Shown: positions 15,801 to 60,480 of the stretch, one piece after another
Layout: every line of letters starts with the position of its first letter
Position numbering within the stretch: position 1 is the stretch's first letter
Assembly: GCF_026151205.1 (NCBI RefSeq)
Contig: NC_087076.1
Coordinates: forward strand, 3,557,902-3,621,901
DNA: 64,000 nt
Origin: Bolinopsis microptera
Lineage: Eukaryota; Ctenophora; Tentaculata; Lobata; Bolinopsidae
Direction of reading: 5' to 3'
Program-made: the position numbers and the translations under genes
The notes under the pieces: generated by a model
Databases searched by the model: none
Seen by the model: the letters and a program-made list of their open reading frames with translations, nothing else
What the model was told of the DNA's origin: nothing

Positions 15801-18800
15801 TGAAAGCCCTCCAAGAGTCTATCAGCTCCAACCCGATCCACACTCCTTTCTTCACCTTGACGGAAACCCACCTCAAGTCGTATCACTTAGATGCAGAGGT
15901 TCACATCCCAGGTTATACCGGCTACTGAGCGGAGCGTACCAGTCGAGCTTGTAGCGGAGCCGCTACCTATCTCCACAACTCCATCACAGCAGAAGAAACA
16001 AAGTCCTTCTCAAACTCCTACTGTGAACTTGTCGCCATCTACAGTAAAGAAGCTAACAGTAACATCGTGATAGCGGGCATTTACCGGCCCCCTTCAGCTC
16101 CTTTTGACAAGTTTGATGAATGCCTCTCTACCCTCCAACAGTTCATCAACGGAATTCAACACACCCCTGTACTGCACATTACAGGAGACTTCAACCTACC
16201 CTTTATCAACTGGACGAATTCTTCTATCGACTCAGGATGCAGTATTTCCCTTTCAGACCGACAATCAGCCCTAGCACTTCTGAACTTCAATGAAGAATGC
16301 CTGCTCCAACAAGAAGTCCTCGAGCCAACTCGCAAGAACAACATCTTAGATCTCGTTTTCTCAAACGACTCTGACTCTATCCATAGTATCTCTGTTACCA
16401 AGACAGAGTTATCAGATCATGACATTGTGAGCTGCACTCTCCTCAATCCTGAACTCCTCCTCCCCTCGCAGACTCCGGAACGGCCAGTCTTCACCCCCTC
16501 CTGCCTCCTTGATGACATTAACTTCAACACAGCAGACTGGGATGCCATTAATGCAGAACTGGTAGAAGTAGACTGGGCTTCTATCACTGACCCAAGCAAG
16601 ATGTAGCGACCATGATGCTCCTGTACAAGTCCTACGTACGATCTCATCTGGAATACTGCTGTCCTCTGTGGTCTCCTCACATGCAGTGCGAAATTATTAA
16701 ACTCGAAGCAGTTCAACGATCCTTCACTGCTAAAATCCAGGGTCTTGGAAATCTCAACTACTGGGAACGCCTCCGTCGCCTGTCTATGTACTCCCTTCAA
16801 AGGCGTCGTGAGAGATACACTATCATCCTAGTTTGGAAGATCTATAACAATCTTACTCCAAACAGTATGAACATCAACTTCCGCGAGACCTCACGATACG
16901 GAACTACGTGTATACGACCACTAGGGTCCTCCAAGTACACTAGTGTCAATAACCTGAGGTTCAACTCCTTTGCCTCTAGAGCCTCTGCAGTCTGCACTGT
17001 ACAACGTGGTCCCTCCTAGCATCAAGTCCCTCCTAACCTTGACCGATTTCAAACCTGCTCTTGATGCTTTCATCAATGAATTCCCTGACACTCCACCATT
17101 CAACACCTGGGTACACTGGACAGAAGAGGAACTCAATGCTGGAGTGGGCCGGTGGCACGTGTCTCTGACGCGCTACTACTTGGCGGTGGATATGCAAGAC
17201 ATTCTTGGCCTGGTAGCACTTTAGCTCGGAACCCAACCAAAGTAAGTAAGTAATAATAAAGGGCCTTTAGAAGGAGTGCATACGCTAGGGTATTGTTTCT
17301 CCGTAGCTTAGTGCACTAGATTCCCACTATAGGGATCGTGCACAAAGCCCAATTACGGTATCGTAGCACCCTGTCGCATGATTAGCGATTAGGTAATCAT
17401 TGATTACCCAATCAATTTCGCTAACGAGATAAACGAATTGCTTGATGACTTCGTCATTTTCAGTCTGTTTCGCGCCAATATCTTTTCAGAATTCAGATCA
17501 TATTCCGAATGTAATGGCCTATTGCAATGTGCAGTTAACAGCATGTTCGCAAACACGATTATGTTGATTACAAGACTCAACGTATGTTTATTATTAATTG
17601 TTAATTATTCGTGTTATGCAATTTTAAAATATTTTGATCGAAAATAATTTTTGAATATTTGTTAAATAATTGATTAACTGATTAATTAATTATCTAATCC
17701 AAAGGTTGACGAATAAAAGTTGTTCTCTCTTATGTTATTAACACATCGGTTCAATCTACAACCTTCTACGACAGTCAGAAGTCGTTTTATTAGCGGACAT
17801 CCAATGTGGTAAAAAGTGGTTATTCTTTACAAATTTCGAAAATTTTATAAGTCCAAAATATTGAAAGTGAAAATTTTCAAAAGTTTTATGAAAATTAGTT
17901 CATTGTACGTGTAATGTAATTGTGAACATTTTTTATGAAAATATATTTTTTAAATATTTGAAAATTTATTAATTGTTTAATTAATTAATTAAATAATTTA
18001 TTTTTGAAAAAGTTGTTAAAGAAAAAGTTGTTCTCCTTTGTTTCCTAAACACACTGCTTTAAACTAGAATCTTCTAAGATATTCAGAACATGACTTATTT
18101 GCGGAAAACCAAAGTGGTAAAAAGGTGGTAAAAAAGTGGTAATTGTGGATTTTGCTCAAGTCAGATTTTTTGGGACTTTTCTGGAATGATTCCTGGGACC
18201 TGTCCCGACCATATCCCGTTAAAATCGCTTTGTTGCGAATTTTGTCCGACAAAAAGACGGATTTGACTGTACTATATTTGCTAATCTGGTATATTATAAT
18301 CCTGTATACTTGATTATTAGTTCAGAGTTGCTAAGTAAACTGAGCTGTTGACAATAATAACTGTTACTTATTGTAACTTTGTACGCACTAATTCCAATAC
18401 TATGCTTCACCAAGTCTGGACCTGGTGCATCTGGCTGCTGGCAACAAACCCTTACCAAAAGGAAAACTTGTATTCACTGATTGATCATTGTGATCATTTC
18501 CAAGATTTAGTAACTGAATTCTCAATGAATATTTATTCAGCCTAACCTGCAGTAATAGTCTCATTTCGTCTCGGTAGACGATAACAAGTACTAGCCTCAC
18601 TGCACAGCCCTCGTTGTTGCAAAATAGCGCACAATCGTCTAGAACAGATCACGTAATAATTGTAACCAATGTAGTAGCTATCAGTAGCCGGTAAAAAATG
18701 TGCTCAAGTATTTTACATGACCTGTAAAACCTCATGTTACGTAACGGCGACGTGCACAGGGCGTACTCCGGACAGGTCACGTGCCATGCTCGTATTGGTC

Positions 18801-35398: not shown

Positions 35399-36436
35399 AT
35401 GTCCCTCATTGGAAGACTTGCTGTGAAGGCATTTAATGCTCACTTTCGAAAATTAAGCCAACTCGTCATCGACCCATCTACAGTTCAGCAACTTAAAAGT
35501 ATTGGTAAGTATTACATGCAAGACATACTATTATTTATTTTTATCGTAATAATGTGATTATTACCGATAACACAGAGAACTGTTGCCAATGTGCCTAGCC
35601 ATGAGAACCAACTTTAACAGAATGCTTTATAAAGTATTATGATATTCTAAACAGCATTATATATAGAAAGCTTTTTAAAGCAACTGCATGTATAATACAC
35701 ATCATACATACAAGTTTTTGTCTCTAAAGTTTACATGTCTGAGCTATTCATTAAGGTTGTACTCTACTGCACTGGCTGTTATGGGATACTTTTTAATTCT
35801 ATTCCATCATACTATGAAGGTCACCAAAACAAGTGAATATCTCAGAGGAGAGGAGTCTACGAGTAACAGTTGATGGAGGAGGATGTAGCGGGTTTCAGTA
35901 CAAGTTTGAAATAAATGACGCTGTAGGGGATGAGGATGTTGTACTCGAAAAGGATGGTATTCGGATAATAACCGACAAGATTTCCCTCGACTTTATGACA
36001 GGTTCCATTTAGCTTACCTATTTTATGTATTTGAACTAGATGATATGTGATTTTTGTATTGAAATGAAATGAAATGAGGTATTTATATCCCGCTCATATG
36101 ATTAACCAACAACACAAGGAAGGTGGTTAACCATGTCAGAGCGGCTGACTGTGAGTGATGTGAGCAAATGTGTAAAAATGAACAAGAGTATAACTCAATA
36201 TAAGGCTAAGACAAAATTAAAACATCTTTTATTTTAAACCACACTAAACTAAAAAGAAGCAGAGACCATTCCAAAGAGATAATTTTAAATTTACAGTTTT
36301 TTAACTTCCATAATTTACAGGATCAACTATTGAGTATCATGAAGAGCTGATCAGGGCTGCATTTAGAGTTGTTGATAATCCCCAAGCAGAAGAAGGTTGT
36401 TCTTGTGGGGTCTCATTTAGTGTTAAAATTGACTGA
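35399..36436 (+). CDS. ISCA2: Iron-sulfur cluster assembly protein 2 (ISCA2), three exons
   Basis: A-type Fe-S carrier of mitochondria that, with ISCA1 and IBA57, builds [4Fe-4S] clusters for late-acting enzymes. Exons 35399-35504, 35846-36001 and 36321-36436 join in phase to about 125 aa (human 154). Exon 2 gives [19 protein letters not shown], with the first cluster cysteine. Exon 3 gives [18 protein letters not shown] and [11 protein letters not shown], with the paired C-terminal cysteines, so all three ligands are kept. The start is the ATG before [11 protein letters not shown]; a basic, Ser/Phe-containing N-terminus suits a mitochondrial presequence, though an upstream exon is possible because an acceptor (TGTTTAG) precedes it. 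The donor after exon 2 (GTTCCA) is weak. A recent retro-insertion lies about 105 bases upstream. Identity is secure. Confidence 0.93.
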
Positions 36437-37274: not shown

Positions 37275-40200
37275 ATGTCACGAAGTGAAGATGACAGTTG
37301 CTCCTCAAGTGAAGATGAAGAGGTATCTGTAGACGAAACCAAAGTACAAGAATTGGAAAACAAGGTAATTAAGTTTTATAGTCTTCATTATAGTGCCTAT
37401 GTGATTGTATGATTGTTTTGTGGTATAAATGATTGAGATACCTGTTATTATAATTTTTAATTTATGTTTTAAAAGGCAGTAAAACAATCCTTGATAATTT
37501 CTAATATAATTCAGCTGTCTACATTATTTACAAGTCGGAAATGCTAAAAGTCTGGTTATGATTACTGTTATGAATAACAATACAGCTATCTGTAAAGATC
37601 ATTAAAATCGTATTCAGATAGTGTCCAAAGTGGTCTTTCCAACTAGGAGGACTCTTTGATCCAGTGTGACTGACATAGTGAACACTGGAAATATACTCAA
37701 TTCCAAGTTTCATAAACGCGACGAAACTTTTTACTAAATACAGTGGAAAAAAATAAAAGTTTAACCTCTATATTTCCACATTAATAAATAAATGTGGCTA
37801 AAAACTAATCTGAGTTTTAATATTCCTAAGTATGCAATCATAGTTTCTAAATATCTGAGAAAGCAGCTACTAACGTTGATGAACGGTAAAATAACTTTCT
37901 CATTAAAATAAACCGGGCATATAGGTGTCTAGAAGATTGTTCAAATTTACAAGTGTTGTAAGTAACAGGGCCAGCATTAATGAGATCGGATGATTTGTCA
38001 GCGGCAAGACAAGGCCTAACTATAAATACTGAACAATTGCCAAATAAATCATCGAGTTCAATTACAGTATCTACCTCGCAACAACAATGAATCAACATAA
38101 AAGAGTTTTTGCAAGAACATTACTGAACATGTATGTTCAGTAATGTTTAATATCACGTAACGCGTTACGTGCTATGCCGTCTAGCTAGGATCTCAGACCG
38201 GATCACGTACTGCAGTCTGTCCGCAGCACCTGCCGTTTAGCTAGATGTCAGAAGACTCCATCTCGTAATCGATAACGTGGAGTCTAGCTGGGGAGCTTTT
38301 CCGTTCCTACAGCTACTGAATAAATTTCCCTTGTATTGTTGATCACTGAAATAGTGTGATTATCTTAAGATAACTAACATAGAAAACAAATTGCACTTTT
38401 TATAACCCTGAGAGCAGTTACTTTTCAACAATTAACACTGTAACTGTAAGAAATATTACATTTCACGAGGTCTCATTGAGTCACAATAGGAGAACTATTT
38501 AGAGAACTATGCTATGTTCACTATTTTATTGTACTCACTTCCAAGGAGGGTATTAGAAAGCAGGGTCATGTACCACCAACCAGTCTCCCGAACACTTCAC
38601 TTATGGTACTTTCAGCTGCCACTGTTGGCTCCTTCACAGCGTTACCTTCTTCAAGTGCACTGCGGTTTCCGTAAGTCTTGAAATCTTTCTTATCTGCATC
38701 ATTCTCTGGCGTCTGTGCTTCTATCTCAGTATTCACTGTTCCGCTCGTCGCTTTTTCTTGATGAGCTATATTTCTTCTTGCTTGGATCCTCCGTATCAAT
38801 CCTGCAATAGCAATCTCTATGAGCTGGGCTACTGTGAAGAAAGAGAATCCTATGAAGATATCAACTGTTCCCCCAAATTCTGCTATGAAACTAGATTCAT
38901 CATAAGCCTTCATCTGTGACAGTTTGTCCACTTTTAGATCTTTGTAGAAAATGTGGATTCTTGCCATATTTTCTCGGGCATAGCTGAAATCAGCTTCATC
39001 TCTGAGATGAGCATCGAATTTGACAAAATGCTCAAAATATTCCTTGGTCGGTGGGAAAACAGTTGTGTCCATCTCAACATCCCACTCGTTGTACGTGCAT
39101 GGCTCATGACATTCTTCCATTTGCAGAATTCCTTCCTTTATCTCGTTACTTATCAGACCGTTGCACAGATTTTGTTGTACAAAGGTGCAGATATACTCTG
39201 TGTAGTTAGAGTGAAATACTGGGGAGTCTTTAGCTTTACCTACAACACGATGGTTGATGTGTGGACTGTGTGGAATGTTGTTCTCAGTTTTATCGTGATT
39301 ATCAGTTTCAGTATCAGTTTCAGTTTCATTTTCAGTTTCAGTTTCAGTACCAGTTTCAGTATGAGTTTCGTGCTCGGCTTCACTTGAAGTACTACGTTTT
39401 TTACCAGACTGGGCCTTCTTAACCTCCGCAACTGCATCATCTAGTACATTTAACCTTTTTTCGGTGTACATTCTTTCTGCAAAATACCAGGGGATACAAT
39501 GACAGTGATTAATCATAGCTTCTATCTGCTGTCGTTCCTGACATTCTCTTACTCCCTCAAACCGCTTCCCATACTTGGAATACTTGCTCAACTTATTCTG
39601 GCATGTACCATGCGGTTTTCCCAGCCGGGTTACGTTTTTAGCAGAGAGTTTGAGAAAGGTCTCTGTACCCGGTGCTACGAGGTACCCACCCTGGTTAAGC
39701 ATAACTGTCTCGTCGTAGTCTCTAATAAACACCACGAAACCTTTGCTGGATGTCGTGAAGAGATAGTCATTAACCTTGGCATCTACATCGATAGTTAACC
39801 TGCCGTTCTTTCCCAACACGTCCTGTACCAGCTCGCCTTTATCATTAATCTCCAGACACATACCTAGCTCGGTTGGGTTTGTCATCTCCGCTCTGTTTTC
39901 TTCTGTGATGTGGTAGCCTACTCCTCTGAACAGAAACTCAAAGTGCCCTACAACCATGTCTAGAATATCGTTTCTAAACCTAACCGCAATGGAGCCCTTC
40001 TTATCCTCCCAATGCTTCAAATCTTCAGCTCTTTCCAAATCCTCTGCAGTCAAGTTGACACCGTAACTCTCATACTTTCTGAAATCAGTTACGAGAGCAT
40101 CAAACTCCTCTTGAAGAGTCTCCCCTTCTCTGTGCTCCTCTGATTCATTGTCAGCTGCCAATGCTGTCTTGAGTTTGGAGTAGTTGAGGTAGTTGGTTCC

Positions 40201-43200
40201 ACACACTGAGATAGCTGGTAGCACTACACCAGACCTCCACTCAATTACACTCTTGTTAAAAGAGTCGTACTTGAAGTAGTTGGTCAGGAGACGGTAGGAT
40301 AGATAGCAGGTGAAACCAGCTAGTGTAAAAATCAGGATGGCCCATATGATTCGGCAAAATCTTGGTCTGCTTTTCTGTTGTAGTACCTGCCGGGAGATGC
40401 ATTAGATTATCAATAATAATAAGAAATTAAAAATAAAGAAATCTATGGTACGGTCAGACAGTTAAATATCTTTAATTTTGATAAGCAATAAAATTGGACC
40501 ATACCTCACCTAAAATTTAGAATTAATCTCATACCTGAAAATAGTCGCTGGCGAGATCTTGGAACCCAAAAAGTAGCTGAGCAGGTTGAGATGCGGTGAC
40601 GGAGACAGTGTCAACATTCTTCTCCCCCTCCAGCTCCCAGGGTTCAACAGTTAACACTACCATATATCACCTACACGAGTTAATTGTGGTTTAATTCTCG
40701 GCCTCAAAAATTCATATTCGTTGAATAAATTAAATGTATTACAGATTTTATCTCTAAGAATTACTGGTCCTCTGTTTTAACTGGAGCACGTTTTAATTTA
40801 AGTTTCAAATACATTTCATATTCTGAAAGTTTTGATAACAATTCTATATGAGATTATGATATGATATTTATTTCAGATTGTAGCAAACCCGTACGACTAT
40901 GGAACACATGTTGAACTACTGAACCTTCTCAATAAGGGTGGCGATGTGGACCGATGTAGAGAGGTTAGACACTTTCTTAGTCTTAAGTTTAATAAAATAT
41001 TGCTCTTCAAAATGCTCTACAAATGAGGGAGTACATTTGAGTTACAATTTTGTTATGTTAGAATTCATACTTAATCTGCATTGAACATGTCCAAAGAGTG
41101 GCAACAAGGTTACTGAAAATATATTCCCCATTCACAAACTGGCACAGTCCGAGAGGCAAAATCTTAACCGCGAACTCCAAACAGATTTATAGAAGTAACG
41201 TACGGTCTTTTGCGCGCATTTGTGCAATTTGACAATTCCACGAGCAGCAACATAACAATCGAGAAGCAGCCTTGCTCTTGGACGGTCAAAAGATCTGATG
41301 AGTGCCTTGACAAACAATCAGCTTAGTTCGCATAGATAGGAAGTTTGCGGGTTCCCTTGTCAGAACGTGCAGATCCTCTCTTGATTGTAGATTTGGCAAG
41401 ATGGTTGCTAAAAGCCTGGTTACCAGGCTTAGATTCATGAAACAACTTTATGGGAGTCAAAGGCTGATCCCCACTAATACCGCAGTTATGTGAAATGTTG
41501 GCTTATAATTGTAAGCGATGACAACGGAATCTTGCAATGATACTGGCAAAATAAAGCTCTTGTTAGACCAATATGTTAGATTATTGGTGATAATAAGAAA
41601 TGTGAGAGGGAATGCTTGAGTAAGAATAAGAGGACGCAAACGTTATAATATACGATTTAATTAGTGGTTTTTGTATTCTCAGTTGTATGCAAGGCTCCAG
41701 CCATATTCAAAGAAAACGATTAGACACCAACGATCACAGATCAAAGCGATTAATTATCTGTGCACAGATAGGGGGCTTGTCTGGAAGGGTGTCCAGGAAG
41801 TTTTGGAGAAATGTCTTGATGCTTGCCAGAGTATTGAAAATTTTTGGGAGAACATTCCAGAGTCTTCCAGCTCTCTGAAAATGAGTTGCGTGCAGCAGCT
41901 GATGCTTTTTTGTGAGCGAAGGGAGTATTGTCAATTTCCACATTCCTGAGTCCTTGTTACAAGTACTTCACTATAACGTTTGGGCTATTTTTTCCCGATC
42001 CATGACTCAAAGTGCCGAAGGCACAAAAGAGTCAAGGACAAGGGTTAGCGATCGAGGTTTTTTTTAATATGGTAGCTTTGCGACCGTGTGTGCGACCGTA
42101 CGTGCCTGCGAGCACTGTTATCGCCCACGTGACTACCTGCGCAAAGTTATTTTGCGTGACAATCTGAATTATATAATTGTTGGCGCGCGGCGCTGAACCA
42201 ACCAAGTACATTATTAATTTTATCATGTACGTATCCCACTAGGCACTAATTAATAGCATATTATTATTATTTTGAGTTAGTATTACTATTTTGCACAGAT
42301 CCGTGTCAGGTACAGGTTGCATAAACAATAAACATATGGTTACATAGAAGTATACACGATTTTCAAATTCAATATAGAATTATATTAACTGGGCGGCAGT
42401 CGGCATGTCACTTCGCCATATTTGCATGTTTATATAAACAGTAAAGACTGGGCCGTCCCCAGGTTGTATGGAATATGATAAATACGCCATCACAGATCGG
42501 GAAATTGAGCGGCCATCCACAAAAGAAAAGCGGCCGCATTTCTTGTTAATTAATCAACTTTCAAATTGTTACACAAATTTACAACATTTTATCAGAAATA
42601 AAATAAAAATTTCTCCGGAAGACCCATAAAAATGCCTTGACAAGTGTGAAGTGACCAAGTGTAATCAAAATAAGGGACACTAGCTGATGACGAGTAAACT
42701 GGTCATTACATCGGGCCATAGGTGCAACTATGAGTGGAGCCATTGCTGTGACCTGTGAAGGTAAGCAAAGTATATATTTTTATTTATACATTTGTAATAA
42801 ATAAATAAGTGAAATAGAATAGATAACATGCTTTGAAACAGGCGGTATTTACAAAAGAAATTGTAGCTGGTTGACTGATGAGCAGCCCTTAGTGCGTGCT
42901 AATATCATAAACAGTAGTATAGAGTAGAAAGTTATAATGACCACAGTGGTTATGCCTTGATAACTTCGTGGTGAGAGTGATAGCTTTACTGCTTAAAGTG
43001 TCTATACTGGAATCAACAGCAAGCCATCTAAACAACCCTGGCCAACAAGGGTAGAAACATTGATGTTGTCAACATTCCACGTCGCCACGGTTGTCGCGTG
43101 ACCCTTTTAAATAGAGTTGTACTAAGCACCTACATGGTCATTGTTTATATTTGGTGGATGCTGTATTCCTGTAGACCCCCTATTGTTCTACAACTTCATA

Positions 43201-46200
43201 GCAAGGTACCGATTTGACCGTTATCTCTAACGATTAGGCACTGTAGACTTGGGTTGTAAAGACTAATGGAGGGCACCACAAGATGAGCTAGATCTGGTAT
43301 CTATCAAATATAAACCGGCAAATAACTATTGAACTGGGCGCGGCTTTGTAGGCCCCAATTTGTGTCTGGTTCCCCGACTGTAACTGGGTAATGACGAGAA
43401 ACTGTTTACTTGAAACAGAAGATGATATTTGAGGGAAAAACAACTTACCATACTACACAGTACAGTGCAACTATATAAATAAGTGACCCACTACGTGATT
43501 TGATTTGAATCTTCTATTAAATAATACAGAATGATACAGGGATAAAATTAAATCAAACAATGGCAACAAAGAATGTTTAAGCTGGGAAAATGCTGAGACT
43601 GGTTTAAGGGCTGGCACAAGTAAACAGAAATTGACAGTACCTACTATATGACCAGTAACTTCTGATTCATGTTGGAGCACACGTGACCAGAAGAAGACAG
43701 CATACAAAAATGCTGTAAATTTGGCCGGATATCTGTTGAAAATACATCTGAAAAAAGATTTTATCGGATTACCGAGGTGGAGCTATTCTGCTTCAAATTG
43801 ATTTAGACACATTGCATGAAGCCACACAAGACTAATTGAGAACTATTTGATACTATCAATTCAATGTTCAACCATTTCATTGGTTGACGATTTTACAAAA
43901 TTTCCATGACTATTCAAACTGGAACCAAATAATGGCGGGTTTATATCCGATCAAGCTCTAGCAGGTGACCAGGCACAAAATAAAATAATTTCAAATAAAA
44001 TTAATCGTCACTGATTGGATGACATGATCCGATCTCTCTGGGGGCCGGATTAGTTTGGTTCCCCCAAGTCTGCTACTGAATAAAACAATAGTAATTAGCA
44101 CTGCCAGTTATCATCACGTCATACCAGGTGATTGTTAATTGGAAAACAGTTAGCACCCGATTTATATCTCTATCCAATTGCACCCTGATAATCATATTGA
44201 TTTAATATCTTTGATTTATTGTTGGAAAAGTGTGAGCTGTTGTTATGGCTTGCAGAACACTTCTTGAGATAGGTATAGGTACAGTAAATCTAGTTCATGA
44301 GGTAATGGCTTCCGTATCATTAAGAATATTTTGTAAAACTTCATGACAAGATGGGAAATAACCAACAAATTATGGCACTTTGCCAAACTTTTACGAAACC
44401 ACTGGTGCCTAATCTATGCCAATTTTGTTCGAAAATTTGTTCCGTTTATTGACACAAGTGTGAAATATGATACACCAGACAGGTCCTGTAAGAGTATTTA
44501 ATATTTTGTCGCCTTTGTATTAACATTGTGATGCAAAGTAATTAATTACAAAGTAATTAATATAATTAATTACAATTAAAATAATTAATTAATTAATTAC
44601 ATTTAACAATTTCATGATTAGCTTCAGTCGTAGTATCCTCCGCAGAATGTCTGTCTTGCAACGTTCACTACATGTAGCATGGCACCTGGCAAACTGAGCA
44701 TTTCCAAAATCTCAATCAGACTCTTGTGACAGACCGTGTCCTTTCCTGGTTGTTGGAAATTAGAATAGAGCTATATTCATCTCATAGTGAATTTGTCTCG
44801 CAAATGAATTTTAAATTGTATGTTTACTATTCTTTGAAAACGCTACAGGATGATTGCAGCGCTAGTTTGTAATACTGAGAACCTCTTACCTAACTCGTAG
44901 AACTTAGAGATAATATCCCAGAAGTAGCCCAGATCTCGCTCTATCAGGATAACATCCCGTTTAGTCATGGGTAGCTGCAGGGACAACGCCACCAATAGAG
45001 AACATACTACTAGCAAACCTCGCATCATTCTGGAACTCTGGAGCTTAGCTCAAAATTGAGAAAGTTAGAAAATAAATGATTTGTCGCGAAACTTGGTTTT
45101 TATGACAGGTGCAGGTGGTGCTGGTAATTATTTTAAAATTAATTCCACATCTGTCTCTCTTTTTCAAAACAATAACCTTTCTAACTCCTGGCCTGATGTT
45201 GATTAGACTGCTAGGGGCCTTTGTGTCTGATCGTATAACTTGGCGTATAACCAGCAAAAACAGATGGTCAAAATTCGTTCTCAATAAATTTAGGAAAATT
45301 TGGTTCTAACTAATTTTTAAAACGTTTAGTTACAACAAATTATCGATCCCGTTCAAAGTACTAAGTTGCGCAAGAGGGACAATTACTGTTCAAACCGCTC
45401 TCTCTCGCTCTCTCTCTCTCTGTTTTAGAAGTAAAGTGTTGTAAATATCGGATATAAAATCAAATTCAGAGACCCTGGAAAAACGTTTCTGTGCAATACA
45501 AATCACTGATAATCTCATTTCTCAGGTCCGAGAGCGGATGAGTGGTATTTTCCCCCTCACTCCGGAGATGTGGCTAGCCTGGATCAAGCAGGAACGCCTC
45601 TTTCTCCCTCTGGATCCGACCCGAGTCAGGGACACCCTCAGGAACCTCTACTCCAGGGCTGTCAACGACTACTCATGTGAGTCTTTTTAGTTTCTTTTAC
45701 TTTCAATTTACAGTTTCTTTGTGATGATTATGAACAAAATTGAAGTTATTTAGTGATACCAAATCGACAATTCCCAAACAGATTAACTTATGAAGAATTT
45801 ATAGACATTTAGAAATAATTCACTACCACTAATTTGATCAAAACAAAAATATAAATTTAGAATTCAAAACATAAATATCTATCTGACACGGGCAAAGGGC
45901 CACGTAAAAAAAGGTTCAATATTACCAACTGCACTTTAAAATCAGTATTTTCAAATAATATCGTCCTTTTTGGGTGCAACTTGGCTTAGTGTAACATGAC
46001 TGTCTGTGCACCAAGTTATCCTTCTAGCAAGTTTGAACTTGTTCCCACATTTGATCAATCATTGAACAAGACGGTGCCCTGCAAAACCTTGTCAACTGTC
46101 CCTGTGGTGTCCACTGAATGCCTTACTCGCCGACATTTTGGTGTTTTAGGAGGTAATCGGACTGAGTTTGGTGTTTTAGGAGGTAATCCGAGCGAGCTTC

Positions 46201-49200
46201 TCTTGTCGGTTGCAGCTCCACCAATCGGCACTTCTTTTCTACCCCGAGTTTTCAGAGATTCTTCTATCGATCTTATTCTTTCCTGAATTGACCCAGTTTT
46301 TGTACGACCACAAGATTTAGAACTCTGACATTCTTTTCCAGTCTGGGGAGCTGTCTTACCTTGTTTTCTAGAAGTTTGAGGAGTGTTATCTCCTCCTTTT
46401 TTAGAAGTCTGAGGAGTGCTGTCTCTTTCTTTTTTAGAAGTCTGAGGAGTTTTCTCTCGCCCTTTTTTTGGATTGCTCTCTCCGCTTGATTCTTTTCTAG
46501 AAGTCTGAGGATTGTTCTCTCCGCTTGATTCTTTTCTTGAAGTCTGAGGAGTGTTTTCTCTGCTTGATTTACTATGTTTCCGAGGCTTGTTTCTCTCTGG
46601 TGAGTTACTGTCTATGGGACAGGGTTTTATTGTAATGGGCTTATAAAGTTTCAACTTCAACCTCTTTTGTGTATTCGGACTAGGAGTAGCCGGACTAGGA
46701 GTAGCCGGACTAGGAGTAGAACTGCAAGGTTTTGGAATATTTGAAGTTCTCTTGACTGGTGGTGTGGTGAACCCCTTTTTACTTTCTTCATCTTTTTCAA
46801 CATGCGGGTCAGAAGGAGACATCTCTTCCTTTGGTTGATCTATAATTAAATTAGCTGGTGGTGTTTTGATCTGACTGTTTCTCCGATCCAATACTTTCTC
46901 CTTGAGCAGCGAGTTCTGTTTTAACTGTCGCTCTCTGACGTTGTGGAAAAGTTTCTTGGCTGGTACAACTTGAGCACACAAAGTTGAGTTTATCCCAGAG
47001 TTGATAAATAGACCATGAGATTTGGGGCTGTTTAAAGAAGTGTGTCTCTGATTTGAAGGGGAGATGTCCTCGCTGGTTGACGAATCTTCCTCACTATCTG
47101 AACCTGCATTGATCACTGCAACGAATGATTGTAGGGAATAGTCCTTACTATTTCTCTCCTCACTGTTGAAACCGGATTCTGATTCAGTCTCTGATTCATT
47201 ATAGGAGATCTTCGCTACAAAATAATTGTCCCTAATATCCTTATTAAAATTTTGACAACCGTTCTCATCACCGCTATCGCTCGAATCACCAGACAAACTC
47301 AACGGTTTCCTCTCAAAACCATTCCCGAATGGCCGATGAGAAGTAGTTGATTTCCACTTCTCATAGGACGACTGGAACGAAGTTGTTCCACGAACCCCGG
47401 TAGCACCTGTCACGTGTTTCTGACAAATCTTAGGCTCCGTTATGTTTTTGTAAGACTGTCTAAATGATTTGTAGCTTTTTGAGTGAACTGTTATCTTCTT
47501 CTCTGATAGTGGTACCTCTTCCAATAGTTCTGAATTATAGTCGGTTAAGAGTTCGGAGATTCTTAGAGGTCTCTTTTTAGTGGAAGGGCAACTTTTAACG
47601 GTGGACATTGAAACAGTCCGACATAATAGGGACCCGTTAGATTTTGGTTCATCAATTGAAATATACTCAGGAATGTGTTCTGTGTTCAATGACTTCTGGG
47701 GTTTATTACGGGACTTGGAATGTTTTTCTGAGGCCTTGGATTCCACAGATTCTTTCCTCGTTTCGTTCAGCTCAGCTGCAGTAAATTTGGGTATTTTGTT
47801 AGACAGAAGGTATTCTCCTGATAAACTCCCGGATCTCGAACTGTCATCTTTTCTGAGCGTGTTGAAAATAGGTGTCCCGCTGTCCTGGAATTAAAAAAGA
47901 GTTTATTGAAAAGTTCCTCGTGGATAAAGAAACAGAAAGTCAGGATAAGAAATAAGAATCTCGGGGCTCTACTTAGAGCTTATTTCATAATACTTACAAC
48001 AGTTGATGGGGGTGAAGTATTTCCACTGGATGGTGTCAAGATATCATATGAGCTCTGTGATGTGATACTCAAACTGTTGCTAGAGTAGGATCCTGTCTTA
48101 CTTGACCGCTTACGCAGGACATCTACAAAAGAATTTACGTAGGGTATCATTTCAACAAACAGGCAACAAACAACACTCATGCCAATTGCCAAAGGAAGCG
48201 TCAAAAATAATCTAGTGACTAAATTAATGTGCCACCAAAGCCGTAATTGCAAATTAAGAGTGTGAATTTTTAGATCGACATCCGTTTTGACAGTTTATAT
48301 AAGCATTGGATGAACTAGAAATGAATATTGATTATTGATCTCAACAATTGTCGTCTATTATTAGTATCAGATAATCGAATGTCAATAAATTTGGATACGT
48401 TTAATTATGTATAATGTATATGGATTATGGTGTCCATGTGATAATTAAGTTTACCTCTAATACTAAGATTATTCTCTAATTCCGTTGAAAGGGGCGCAGT
48501 TTTATCAGATAGGTTGTTATTTCTATCATTATTTCCAGATTTCGACCTGCAGAATAATGCAGAGTTAGTTTATAATTGCACGTGAAATGAATAAGGAAGA
48601 AGATTTAAACTGTACTCGGTTATCTACACTTTATTCATACTGTTATACGGTATGAAGATTCTATAAATTAACATGTTAAATTAAAAGAAAACTGTTTTGT
48701 ATTTCCTTTGTCATCAGATAAAGAAGCTAACCTCATATCCCCTGATATCCGTATAAAGAAGCTTAAACAATATATTTAAAGAGATACTATCCGCTACTAA
48801 CTTGAGTGCAAAGTAGAAACTGCAAATAGGGCGATCTCCTGCTCACCATTTACACACCCTAATTATCTCACTAGTTACTAAAGTAAGTGTTCAATTATTC
48901 GCCCCGGATACAAACTAATTTGATCGGCTTATTTCTTGGTTTGTAATCATGCTGTGACTGGTCAGCAAATCATGATCAGTAAAATATGGGATGTCAAACC
49001 ATCGGTCAAATTAGTATCAGAGAAATGAATTCTTATCGGATAATTTTAGCTAGAAAGCAACCAAAGTTTACGATCTATCCAAATATACCAAAATACGCGA
49101 GCAAAATAAAGCTAAAGGGGTTTGTTAATGTTTTCTGACCTCTCCTCTCTCCCAGCGGTGAGGTTGTGGTGTCAGTACTGTTCTGATGCAACTAGTGTCC

Positions 49201-52200
49201 TGGACTATGAAGAGACCAGGATTAGAGAGATATTTGAGCAAGCTCTATCTGCCATTGGGCTTCACGTGACAAAGGTTTGTGTGGAATCATTATACAGTCC
49301 TCTTCCCTCTTAACCCCCTCCTCCCCTCTTTACCCCCTCTTCCCTCTTAACCCCCTCCTACCCCTGGCCCCCTACCCCCCTCTTAACCCCCTCCTCCCCT
49401 CTTAACCCCCCCCTTCCCTCTTAACCCCCTCCTACCCCTGGCCTCCTACTACATATTGTCTTGGATAGATGATTTATTTAGCTAATACATAAAGAAACAT
49501 AACCTACTTACTGGTGTTACCAGGGTAGCGAGCTGTGGGATCAGTACAGGCAGTATGAGGACACACTCCTACAAACTATAAAAGAGAAGCTTGCGGAGGA
49601 CAACTGTACTGAGAAGGAGTTCCTACAGGACCTATATAACAAACAGAGAAGCAGGGTGGACAACTTATTTCAAAGACAACTTGCTGTTCCTCTCAACGGT
49701 TCGTTTCAAATACATTGTCTGTTGTAGCAGTTAAAGGTGTGTGTTGACCGAATGATGATAGGTGTTACAAGTGCAGGCCTCATATTTTAATCTACTACTG
49801 GGCTACTTTGTGTAAGGACGTGTTAGCAATTACAACTGATAGAAACTAGTGTTCTCTACTCTTCAGGTTTGGAGTATGCAATGTCAGAGTATAAGACTTG
49901 GTTAGGAGGGGCTCATGCTGACATTCCTATTGCCCTTCAAAACAGATACGAAACAGCCCTCAAGAAACTTCAAGCTGTCACCTCTTACGAACAAGCGCTG
50001 GTAAGATCTTTCATTTGTTTATAGAATTACAATCAAGAAATGTATAAACTTATCTGCAACTTAGCTAAGTTTTCATTGTTGACATTTACTATTGCACTTT
50101 GCATCTTCAAGGACCGTTGCGTTGATTGTTTGCCTATATTCAGTGTTATACTCGTGCTACAGTGTTACAATTGTGTAACAGTGTTGTACAGTGTTGCACA
50201 GTGTTACAGTGTCTTCTTCTCAGGATAACACTGCGCCTCCACACGAGGAGGAGTATTTCTACTATATCGAGCATGAGAGAAAACACGGTGACCCTGCTAG
50301 AGTCATCTGTTTAATGGAGAGAGCTATTACAGACAATCCTCTCAACTCCAACAGATGGGTCGACTACCTCAGATACTTGGTGAGTTTGGGGACGCTGGGC
50401 CCTACCTCCAGGGATCGGAACAGCCATTACAATTCATTGTTTTATTTTTGGTTTTACTTGATATTTTGAAAGCTTGGAACAATTCAAAATCTTTGACGGA
50501 CGAAAATAATAAAAACAAGCAAAGAGATCATAAAACTGATCCCTTTAAATGTTTCAGGACCAAATCCTAAAAGTGAAAAGTGTGGTGTTATTAGCGTACA
50601 GTAGAGCAGTAAGGAATGTTCCCTGGATAGTAGAAGTGTGGACTCAATACATGCTAGCTCAGCAACGCTACCAGCTTCACTTCTCCCACATTGACGGTTA
50701 GTACAATTAAATAATCTCATAGTCTCAGTGGTTTAAGTGCTCCTGGAAAAAGAAGATTCTGGAACTTCATCCGGAGGAACAAAAGCACTGTGACTGTAGT
50801 TTCAGTTGCCGTTGTTTTCATAATTAGTATTGTTCCGGTATTTCTAGTTCATCTTTTTTAGTATCTTGGTGTTTGTTTGCACCCAAAATTGGCACTTTTT
50901 GAGGAGATATTTGAGATGTTAAACGTCGTTATTAATCCTTTTATTTATTCTTCAACAAATCCAACCTTTCTTCAGTTTTATAGAAATCGCTGGAAGTTTT
51001 GATGATTTGATTTGATTTTATTGATTTCATATTATTATTAATGTAATAATTATCAACTGATTTTCAGAATTGTTTGTTCCTCAAATATAACGGTCTAGAG
51101 TTCCATCGTGGCAACAATGTGTATTTATGCGATTTTAAGACCTTTGTATGACAAATAGAATGTACCACAATCAGCAAAAAGTCAAATAATGAAAATAGAA
51201 TAGCTAAAACTATGAAAGCAATGATACTCTTTATACCCAGAGACGTTGGAAGAAGCACTGAAGAACGGTTTCCAGGACTCAGCCAGCCACTTATCCCTCT
51301 GGAGGTGTTATCTGTCGTGTCACTGGAGACAGGAACGGTTCCAGCCTCTCAATACAAACGGATCCGAGAAGCATCTAGATAACAACCCTCTGAACGCAGC
51401 TTTTCAGCGGGGTATTAATTTCATCAACCAGACCTTTGGAGAAGAAGGAGACCCTCAAGGTATGTTCAGTAATTGTCTCAAATGTAAATACTTCGCTCTT
51501 TTAAACTATGGGTTTGATGTTTTCTTGGGTTGATTTTATAACGACGTGAATTTAGGTGAGTTAACGTTCTTCATGGCTGAATGCGAGGATTGAGAGATGA
51601 CGTACAAAGCTTTCGAGTTTTGATGTCGGGACTTTTTGAATCCAAGATTTACAAAGAACAAACCAGTGAGTTGATAATTGTACATCACAAAATTACAAGT
51701 TTATTACCTTACAATTTTACATTTCTCTCACAAAATAATACAAAAAATACGAACAAGCAAATTCGTGCATTTTTTTATCGACTCTACTCGATTGCTTTCA
51801 AGGTTACATCCTATGCTTGTCAGGTTTGTGGCTGAAGTATATCGCACTGGAGCTACGGTTTGGTGATATCACAGAGGCTAGGAGGATATACCAGAAAGCA
51901 GTTCAATGTAACACAGACAATCCTCAGATGATTATTCAGAGATTCCTGAACTTTGAGAGTGTTCATGGTATGGGTCCAACTTAACCATAAAATCTGTTAT
52001 TTTGTCGCAAGTTGTTTTTGGTTCACACAATATAAATATAATATTTTTATTAGCGTTATAGAAAAAGCAAGTTCATTAACCTGTTCCTCAACTTCTTTCC
52101 GTTTTATGTAGTATTTTTGACAGGTACGCTAGAAACGTTCGATAACACAGCAGTGAAGTGTCGGAGACAGCAGAAGAAAATTGACGAAAAATCAGCGAAG

Positions 52201-53394
52201 GTTGGTTTATTTCACTATTTTAGTGAATATAGTCAGTTCTTTAAAGGTGTCGTTTGTACAGTGTACACTTTCGACCATAATCGTCAATTTAGATAACTTT
52301 CAGGAAGCCGAAAAGTTGGCTCTTCAAAACAAGAGATCATCGGAAAACAAAGGAAAGAGCAGGCCGAACGCTAAAGAAGGTTTTGGTAAAAGTAAAAACG
52401 ATCAAAAGAACAAACACGACAATAAACCAGCCTCGTCAAAGAAAAGAAAAATCTCATCAGAACCCGAGAATCAGAAGGACACTAAAGTTATGAAACAAAA
52501 CACCAAAAGTCAGAGAAAACGTCTTTCCCTAAAAAGCCCGCCACAGACTCAACAGAAATTGACAAGAGCAAATACCCTCTGACTATATTCGTCAGTAACT
52601 TGTCGTACGATGCGACAGAGGATGATCTGAACAACACGTTTAAGCACGTGGGCAGTATCGTGGACATCAGACTGGTGAAGAGCGTCAACAACAAGTCTAG
52701 AGGGTTCGGATACGTTGAGTTCCACAGAAGAGAAGAGGTGATGGCTGCTCTGGAGATGGACCGAGTGCCTGTGCTGAACAGACCTTGTTACGTTAACGAG
52801 TGCAAAGAAAAGACTGCTGACGATAAAACGGAGTTCAAGTATAAGATGGGTATGGAAAGTCACAAACTGTTTATCAATAACCTTCCCTACGAAACAACTG
52901 AATCTCAGTTGAGAGACATGTTCGGTAAAATCTCCGATATCAAAAGTCTTAGAATGGTAACTACCAAGAGTGGAAAGTTCAAGGGATTTGCTTACGTTGA
53001 GTACTCGGACAGCGAATCCGCTAAGAAAGCAATTCTTGAACTAAACGATAATATGATAGGAGATAGGAAAATGAGCGTTGCTATTTCAAACCCTCCGGGA
53101 AAATCAGCTGCACCAAAACACTCTGATTCCTCTTTGATTTCTGAGAAAGCTGAAGACGGCACTAAGAGGAAAATGAAGATGAACTTCATGATTCCGCGAG
53201 CTATCAGCAAACCTAAGACTAAACAATCAGACGAAGTAAAGACCGAAAATAAAGCGGCTGCTTCTAATTCCCTGACTGATAGTAATAGCACACTCGGTAA
53301 CCTCTCAGAAAGCAGGTCTAAAGCTATAAGTCGTGATGAAGCACCTAAACAAATGTTATCGAACTCTCAGTTCAGTAAACTCTTTTACAAGTAA
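37275..53394 (+). CDS. SART3: SART3 / p110 (U4/U6 snRNP recycling factor), 13 exons, two apparent frame breaks
   Basis: Nuclear HAT-repeat, two-RRM protein that reassembles U4/U6 snRNPs and recruits USP15/USP4 in vertebrates. Exons: 37275-37364, 40877-40963, 45526-45676, 49156-49274, 49524-49698, 49867-50000, 50224-50379, 50558-50696, 51241-51459, 51556-51665, 51824-51967, 52124-52200, 52304-53394, about 897 aa (human 963). The N-terminus is acidic (DDSCSSSEDEEVSVDE), then HAT repeats such as MSGIFPLTPEMWLAW and HEEEYFYYIEHERKHGDPAR. RRM1 begins LTIFVSNLSYDATEDDL, RRM2 HKLFINNLPYETTES. The end, MLSNSQFSKLFYK, is the LSm-binding tail. Breaks: exon 10 reads MAECED then TGA, while the HAT sequence resumes as LRDDVQ in another frame; exon 13 changes frame between 52486 and 52579, before RRM1. 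These may be assembly indels. Introns 1-3 each contain a gene on the minus strand. Confidence 0.92.
38525..38530 (-). terminator. Poly(A) signal of the DEG/ENaC gene
   Basis: AATAAA on the minus strand, 36 bases after the channel's stop codon. Confidence 0.6.
38566..40663 (-). CDS. DEG/ENaC-family sodium channel subunit, nested in SART3 intron 1
   Basis: Two-helix trimeric cation channel of the plasma membrane (family of ASIC, ENaC, FaNaC, HyNaC). Two exons, 40663-40535 and 40386-38566, join in phase to 649 aa. TM1 is RIIWAILIFTLAGFTCYLSY, followed by VVLPAISVCG, the family's FPAVTIC-type block. The extracellular part has the Cys-rich region RECQERQQIEAMINHCHCIP and EECHEPCTYNEW. TM2 is FGGTVDIFIGFSFFTVAQLI; GFS occupies the G-x-S selectivity-filter position. 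Oddities: the N-terminal HG gating motif appears as FG (LLFGFQDL), and the extracellular domain contains an acidic Thr/Glu run (TETGTETETENETETDTET, about 39300-39360) before TEYICTFVQQNLC. Ligand is unknown. It lies on the opposite strand to its host gene. Subfamily cannot be judged. Confidence 0.9.
41078..41943. pseudogene. Scrambled remnants of a LINE reverse-transcriptase C-terminus
   Basis: On the minus strand, 41943-41734 encodes RAGRLWNVLPKIFNTLASIK, the pattern seen at the very end of CR1/RTE-type ORF2 proteins. On the plus strand near 41078, IEHVQRVATRLLKIYSP resembles the block that precedes it in such proteins. The opposite orientations indicate rearrangement. Too little is left for classification. 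Confidence 0.4.
44624..45028 (-). CDS. Small secreted protein (86 aa), nested in SART3 intron 2
   Basis: Two exons, 45028-44890 and 44745-44624, join in phase 1 across a 144-bp GT-AG intron (donor GTAAGAG, acceptor CCAACAACCAG). The first exon opens with MMRGLLVVCSLLVALSLQLP, a textbook signal peptide, followed by MTKR, a possible dibasic processing site, and a Trp/Tyr/Phe-rich stretch (LGYFWDIISKFYELG). The second exon contains two cysteines (DTVCHKS and TFCGGYYD) separated by 29 residues, enough for one disulfide, and stops with TGA. I do not recognise a family. A secreted peptide, prohormone or extracellular ligand are all possible. The joined frame, clean splice sites and signal peptide make it a likely real gene. 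It is the second of three minus-strand genes inside SART3. Confidence 0.6.
45526..45676 (+). other. SART3: SART3 exon 3, between two nested genes
   Basis: This exon encodes VRERMSGIFPLTPEMWLAW and the rest of a HAT unit. It is listed separately because it lies between the nested secreted-protein gene and the nested disordered-protein gene, which confirms that the two sit in different introns of the host. Confidence 0.85.
46055..48736 (-). CDS. Large disordered Ser/Lys/Pro-rich protein, nested in SART3 intron 3
   Basis: Exons 48736-48732 (tentative, encoding M and part of R), 48546-48455, 48122-47998 and 47884-46055 join in phase to 683 aa. The first exon is inferred because the sum becomes divisible by three and the start reads MRSKSGNND. 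The protein is hydrophilic and low-complexity: SSNSLSITSQSSYDIL, an acidic patch (SDSEEDSSTSEDISPS), repeated SPATPSPATPSP, then four to six imperfect repeats around TPQTSKK and ESSGENNPQTSRKE. Near the end, LPPKTPNSVRLPPKTPK supplies paired TP sites. Abundant SP/TP motifs suggest a proline-directed-kinase substrate, perhaps nuclear. I recognise no folded domain or family. The long open frame (609 codons in the last exon) is strong evidence that it is real. Confidence 0.7.
49303..49450 (+). repeat. C-rich tandem repeat in SART3 intron 4
   Basis: Imperfect repeats of a unit near CCCTCTTAACCCCCTCCT fill most of this 249-bp intron. The opposite strand therefore carries many G runs capable of quadruplex formation. 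Confidence 0.8.
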
Positions 53395-58907: not shown

Positions 58908-59102
58908 ACTATTACTATTACATAATCATGATACATGATAGGTTAAGTCATAAATAGATGCCAATGGGTCACAAAATTAAGATCTTGAAGAAATTCTTAA
59001 GAATTTTTAGTTTTCTAAATGCACCACAGCGAGCATGCAAACCTGGCTATCAGCATTCCACATCTTATCTGGTATCTACTGCAACTGTACTAAGTATAGT
59101 TG

Positions 59103-59628
59103 CTTGGCACTGCTAACCAAGTTGGCACTGCTAACCAAGTTGGCACTGCTAACCAAGTTGGCACTGCTAACCAAGTTGGCACTGCTAACCAAGTTGGCAC
59201 TGCTAACCAAGTTGGCACTGTTTACCAAGTTGGCACTGCTTACCAAGTTGGCACTGCTTACCAAGTTGGCACTGCTAACCAAGTTGGCACTGCTAACCAA
59301 GTTGGCACTGTTTACCAAGTTGGCACTGTTTACCAAGTTGGCACTGCTTACCAAGTTGGCACTGCTTACCAAGTTGTCACTGCTAACCAAGTTGTCACTG
59401 CTAACCAAGTTGGCACTGCTTACCAAGTTGGCACTGTTTACCAAGTTGGCACTGTTTACCAAGTTGGCACTGCTTACCAAGTTGGCACTGCTTACCAAGT
59501 TGTCACTGCTAACCAAGTTGTCACTGCTAACCAAGTTGGCACTGCTTACCAAGTTGGCACTGTTTACCAAGTTGGCACTGTTTACCAAGTTGGCACTGCT
59601 TACCAAGTTGGCACTGCTAACCAAGTTA
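59103..59628 (+). repeat. 18-bp minisatellite (GGCACTGCTAACCAAGTT)n, 29 units, with higher-order repeat
   Basis: Units differ at two places (GCTAACC, GCTTACC, GTTTACC; GGCACT or GTCACT). From about 59302 a block of seven variant units (126 bp) is repeated nearly three times. Because 18 is a multiple of three, several frames on both strands stay open; these are not genes. Confidence 0.97.
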
Positions 59629-59639
59629 ACCTCATTTTA

Positions 59640-60480
59640 AAGTTTTAACGGAAGCTATGTTGAAAGTGATTGAATTATGATAAATGTTAAAATACTAAAG
59701 AACTTGGCGAGGAATTTTTAAATTGTTTTAGACAGACTTGTCAGTGAAGAAAATGAGGGTAAATGATATGTTTTCCAAAGCTTGTTTTCTAAATAACGAG
59801 TGGAATGTGACCTCTAAGACATGAAGGCTATAAAAAATAGACTATATTGTTGAGCAACATTAAACATGTGCGGTGGATACGGAATCGCACTATTGACATT
59901 TGACCGCACTTTTTCGCACCATCGGCCGATATTCGTTCCATTATGTTTGTGTAATTGGTACCGTTGTTTATAATGTCAATGTGATAAGATCGAAATGCCT
60001 ACAACTATGGTTAGGGTCAAACGATTTTCATGACGTAACATCGGAAATAAGGATTACTTTTACAAATCAGATGACAAGTTAATAATAAATGTTGGATTCC
60101 GCAGCCACCGTAATTAATGCAACTTTTAATATTATCGATATTTGATAAAGAAACAAAAAGAGGAAAGAATGCAAAGAGGGCGAATGATCTTATATAATAA
60201 TTTAATTATATTTGTAGTTAGAAAATATTATAGTTTTCCGGACTTAGTTTTAGCTTCTACACACAATGTGTTACACTATTGAATACTCTGCATAAATTAT
60301 GCTCGTCAATTAGCCCCATTTATCCATCTAAATGTAAAACCTTCTGTGATGGTAATTCTAGAATTAAATTAAATATTAATATATTAAATTAAATAAAATC
60401 GTAAATCTAAAATTATAAATCTTAAATTTTCAGAAATGTACCCCTAGTTCAACACGTATTGTAAAAAACCCTTAAGTTCG
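59640..60480. other. Intergenic, no gene seen
   Basis: AT-rich DNA with no recognised gene or mobile element. Confidence 0.4.

Follow-up and report, generated by a model that had tools for sequence, protein, structure and literature searches.

In human NF1 three antisense genes lie within one intron, and Drosophila dunce is a host with several nested genes. In Hormiphora, a ctenophore, 1,654 hosts were reported to contain 2,357 intronic nested genes, many of them parallel to the host and 484 doubly nested (Schultz et al. 2021, PMC8527503). In C. elegans, where 567 opposite nested pairs were analysed, induction of a host by its antisense guest is reported, but coexpression is on average lower for nested pairs than for neighbours (PMC12274878); a glass sponge paper gives about 10% of nested exonic bases as a normal value across several phyla (PMC10282587). 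Here we describe the SART3 gene of the ctenophore Bolinopsis microptera, in a window of 64,000 nucleotides (contig NC_087076.1, positions 3,557,902 to 3,621,901 of the forward strand; all positions below are those of the window). Introns 1 to 3 of this gene very probably each host a fully nested, antisense protein-coding gene that is independent of the other two and has its own promoter. Nothing was found in the open-licence literature that pairs SART3 with the phrase "nested gene".

Results

Three antisense coding sequences in consecutive introns of SART3

The anatomy of the locus, its reading frames, the homology of the host and of two guests, and the guest intron positions common to paralogs are established by the sequence analysis. 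SART3 occupies 37275-53394 on the plus strand and encodes HAT repeats, a region matching a solved SART3 structure, and two RRMs. Modelled exons 1 to 6 lie at 37275-37364, 40877-40963, 45526-45676, 49156-49274, 49524-49698 and 49867-50000, and exons 7 to 12 at 50224-50379, 50558-50696, 51241-51459, 51824-51967, 52124-52200 and 52304-53394. Introns 1 (37365-40876, 3,512 bp), 2 (40964-45525, 4,562 bp) and 3 (45677-49155, 3,479 bp) each contain one separate minus-strand coding sequence. As the preliminary description had claimed, the three are in consecutive introns and antisense to the host. Each coding span is inside a single intron; the distances to the neighbouring SART3 exons range from 213 to 3,660 bp. 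The eight remaining modelled introns measure 103-544 bp each, so that the guests occupy the three longest of the eleven introns (chance 1 in 165), a coincidence which is partly trivial because guests need room.

The separation of the guests depends on exons 2 and 3 belonging to the host. Residues 1-497 of the modelled SART3 protein were aligned with the solved structure 5ctq, which we take to be human SART3, in three stretches with a whole-query E value of 4.3e-81. The first stretch (query 20-167, E 5.6e-28) has small gaps only and spans the end of exon 1, exons 2, 3 and 4, and the start of exon 5. This unbroken alignment from exon 1 to exon 5 shows by homology that exons 2 and 3 belong to SART3, and at that level the earlier assignment of both exons to the host stands. 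Pfam HAT models were matched in the N-terminal part, where the repeats are collinear with those of the solved protein, and the C-terminal part has two RRMs (PF00076 in two stretches, E 4.8e-41).

In the last modelled exon the reading frame shifts between 52486 and 52582, which reflects either an extra short intron or an assembly indel. As 24 candidate GT-AG introns could bridge the shift, we do not regard it as a sign of a pseudogene.

The DEG/ENaC gene in intron 1

Nested gene 1 (38566-40663, minus strand; exons 40663-40535 and 40386-38566) encodes a protein of 649 amino acids (aa). Its large exon matched PF00858 with an E value of 5.9e-44 and 151.3 bits, compared to a cut-off of 23.6, and the match covers positions 15-454 of the 455 of this ASC domain profile. 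The product is thus predicted to be a DEG/ENaC channel. An AATAAA poly(A) signal is found 35 nt past the stop codon.

The 43-codon 5' exon was first recognised in the sequence itself and then compared with paralogs found in the genome (all genome searches used the 264.65-Mb assembly of 232 contigs). It is present in paralog L011, at 51% identity (E 4e-9). The acceptor is at the same site in L011 and L012, whereas L013, L014 and L015 read through; the intron is therefore present in 2 and absent in 3 of the 5 paralogs examined. Since two paralogs share this intron, the nested gene is no freshly processed retrocopy, and an origin by retroposition is not favoured. Nor is it a recent copy, as its identity to the nearest paralog found is 56-60%.

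Opposite-strand Pfam scans at four DEG/ENaC paralog loci yielded no match at three of them and matches at the fourth, L028. However, a control scan of the plus strand of 37275-47273, which holds SART3 exons 1-3, also found nothing, so that the scan has no power to detect nesting at the paralog loci. At L028, a clear Pecanex_C exon was seen close to the edge of the locus, on the minus strand at about 128-331 (PF05041, E 2.9e-12), some 3.6 kb from the opposite-strand DEG/ENaC paralog, together with one further Pfam match below its cut-off; this paralog could be nested too. In the open-licence literature on ctenophore DEG/ENaC channels, none of the matches listed contained the phrase "DEG ENaC".

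The 86-aa protein in intron 2 and its family

Nested gene 2 (44624-45028, minus strand) has two exons, 45028-44890 and 44745-44624, coding for a protein of 86 aa with a hydrophobic N-terminus, predicted to be secreted and containing one C-x28-C domain. A genome search with this protein gave 24 matches at E 10, namely its own two exons and 22 others. Among these are long frames on contig C1. Three such frames were read; each has eight tandem domains, in places with KR sites between them, and one of the three is truncated by the locus end. When the spacing was left free between 25 and 31, C-x28-C was nevertheless found in all 26 domains (20 of them distinct). The family domain is about 58 residues long with two invariant cysteines, and the 86-aa protein conforms to it: aligned to 11 other domains, at 19-34% identity, it required a single gapped column inside the domain.

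In the 86-aa gene, a phase-1 intron interrupts the coding sequence five residues ahead of the first cysteine. We examined 17 copies picked by a fixed C-x28-C pattern, one of which, L007, was already among the 26 domains; read by eye, 13 had an acceptor AG at the position and phase seen in the 86-aa gene. This independently confirms the splice model of nested gene 2, and the models of two of the three guests, this one and the DEG/ENaC gene, are thereby confirmed independently. The phase-1 intron is absent from the other 4 copies and from the tandem-domain frames, and so marks only part of the family.

No Pfam family was found for the 86-aa protein at E 10. A tandem-domain relative gave 8 weak Pfam matches, all below their cut-offs and none to saposin, and no PDB sequence match at E 10. 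The relatives' domain was predicted to fold as four helices with a mean pLDDT (predicted local distance difference test) score of 93, from an alignment that did not include the 86-aa protein; the best of 66 Foldseek matches of this predicted fold in the PDB reached only E 2.3. Saposin-like proteins have a six-cysteine pattern. Membership of that group was rejected, considering the two invariant cysteines, the Foldseek result and the lack of a saposin match in Pfam.

Copies of the family were noted at L003-L008 (C1:17.654-17.672 Mb and C3:11.854 Mb), L016 (C1:22.1855-22.1925 Mb) and L017-L022. They form a cluster of at least 9 on C1, with others scattered, in addition to the tandem-domain genes with KR sites. 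By comparison with Pfam and the PDB, the family is possibly lineage-specific and not yet described. As a multi-copy family of predicted secreted, helical proteins that has no match in the libraries searched, it merits a study of its own.

The 683-aa protein in intron 3

Nested gene 3 (46055-48736, minus strand) was modelled with exons at 48546-48455, 48122-47998 and 47884-46055, preceded by an uncertain first coding exon of 5 nt (48736-48732) which is the weakest piece of the model; the rest is well within intron 3. The modelled exons are joined by GT-AG introns with agreeing phases, and an independent exon model also gave a protein of exactly 683 aa. The largest exon holds an open frame of 609 codons, whereas the longest frame among 500 dinucleotide shuffles reached 263. 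In-frame repeats with periods of 33, 39 and 15 bp show 0% indels, as expected for a reading frame that has been kept. From its composition the product is predicted to be disordered: order-promoting residues make up 19% of it, versus 33% in SART3 residues 1-497, its composition is strongly disorder-like, and it falls below the charge-hydropathy boundary.

Repeats and other features of the window

Intron 2 also contains an interspersed repeat of about 560 bp (41987-42547); 39 further copies, 92-96% identical, were listed elsewhere in the genome (40 scored among 1,033 candidates). Given its many copies, a transposon-like element has added to the length of this intron. For 1,196 bases of intron 1, only short partial matches were found elsewhere in the genome. 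More than half of intron 4 is filled by a C-rich tandem array (49305-49449) with units of 19 and 74 bp.

Upstream of SART3, an exon of an iron-sulphur assembly gene lies on the plus strand at 35818-36012 (PF01521, E 1.7e-8). A fragment of an endonuclease-reverse transcriptase at 15929-16606 (PF14529, E 1.2e-12) is probably the remnant of a long interspersed nuclear element. At 59011-59648 a satellite-like tandem repeat has open frames on both strands, with LALLTK and SSANLV units. The GC content of the window, in 2-kb blocks, ranges from 31 to 43%.

Discussion

Origin and working of the nest

As to the order and mode of insertion, the promoters, transcription and regulation, we infer the following. 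Each guest would have entered its SART3 intron separately, through insertion or rearrangement at the DNA level. Separate events are most likely because the three guests are unlike each other. Since conserved SART3 exons lie between them, insertion of the guests into introns seems likelier than growth of SART3 around its neighbours. The preliminary description had spoken of three different nesting events. That there are three separate genes with real host exons between them is borne out; that they stand for three events is a reasonable reading, given the dissimilar guest proteins and the conserved exons that divide them. Independent antisense transcription of the three guests is the most likely mode of expression: each would be transcribed from its own promoter, would end at its own poly(A) site, and would be spliced out of the sense pre-mRNA as part of its SART3 intron. 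The opposite orientation would avoid splicing and polyadenylation conflict between host and guests. If SART3 is affected at all, this would be through ordinary antisense interference or activation in cells that express both host and guest.

Such a nest need not be exceptional. From the published mean for Hormiphora, and assuming a zero-truncated Poisson or a geometric distribution, about 129-147 of its hosts would have at least three guests; this is a rough estimate, which rests on an assumed distribution and requires neither three different introns nor antisense guests. At this nesting frequency, a triple-guest host is unremarkable and calls for no special mechanism.

Alternative explanations

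A number of observations weigh against the reading of three independent guests. The nesting frequency of Hormiphora may not hold for B. microptera. The 22 other matches of the 86-aa protein are individually weak, with E values from 0.004 to 8.5. The poly(A) signals after nested gene 2 (ATTAAA at 121 and AATAAA at 173) and nested gene 3 (TATAAA at 251) lie far off or depart from the canonical motif. Searches with the main frame of nested gene 3 (611 aa) found nothing else in the genome at E 1 and nothing in Pfam at E 0.1. The synonymous-codon score of the true frame is 4.9, a value exceeded by 4 of the 5 alternative frames; on full codons the true frame does score highest, yet only by 39.1 versus 38.3, and the two smaller exons score below 0. 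Codon usage was therefore rejected, as uninformative, for proving this gene. Taken with the 5-nt first coding exon, this lack of homologs and of a codon signal would fit a locus where nested gene 3, or its 5' end, is no real separate gene and only two guests are genuine. We consider this improbable, since a frame more than twice the shuffle maximum, repeats free of indels and GT-AG introns of matching phase all speak for the gene.

The three guests could also form one operon-like antisense transcription unit resolved by spliced-leader trans-splicing, with a functional reason for their shared orientation. The premise is that ctenophores use such trans-splicing widely, and in Hormiphora a spliced leader was reported on at least 56% of Iso-Seq reads (PMC8527503). 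Three guests in a row with the same orientation, and poly(A) signals that are farther or less canonical after genes 3 and 2 than after gene 1, point the same way. Random orientation, however, would place all three on the same strand in 1 of 4 cases, and all antisense to the host in 1 of 8. Moreover, about 4 kb, including the interspersed repeat, separate the stop of nested gene 2 from the start of nested gene 1. A genome search with part of a Hormiphora-type leader, allowing up to 3 mismatches, gave 22 matches versus 24 for the reversed control, and a second leader pattern gave 6 versus 6, a null result to be read with the proviso that the leader may have diverged. We give an operon-like unit very little credence, and just as little its more elaborate form, in which a trans-spliced antisense unit is interdigitated with SART3, with host exons between the operon genes, and kept for regulation of the host. 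It is likewise very unlikely that the triple nest is a selected architecture, conserved across ctenophores, in which the guests control SART3 by antisense transcription or interference. Antisense nested genes can indeed induce their hosts, as reported for ceh-10 and polq-1, but the same source finds nested pairs to be less coexpressed, on average, than neighbours (PMC12274878), and ctenophore gene order is described as extensively rearranged (PMC8527503). The preliminary description had raised conserved architecture or shared regulation, and at this locus we find no support for either. We retain three independently nested and independently transcribed antisense genes as the preferred reading.

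Comparison with known nested genes

The SART3 nest is an attractive but ordinary case, and a good example, nested genes being already common in a ctenophore. With it, a lineage that branches at the base of the animal tree gains a clear host of three nested genes, supported by homology, and automatic annotation of this genome must allow for nested genes. Should the nest prove conserved or co-regulated, antisense interference in ctenophores could be tested on it in a natural setting.

NF1 and dunce resemble SART3 in having several guests per host, with the difference that the guests of NF1 share one intron whereas those of SART3 occupy three. In C. elegans, the DNA-repair gene polq-1 hosts antisense ceh-10 in an intron; that worked example has a single guest in its host, and regulation was tested in it (PMC12274878). 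A close likeness comes from Hormiphora californensis, where genes lie wholly within host introns, as in SART3, and the host shown in a figure has four guests. That example includes doubly nested genes (PMC8527503), whereas SART3 carries one antisense gene in each of three consecutive introns.

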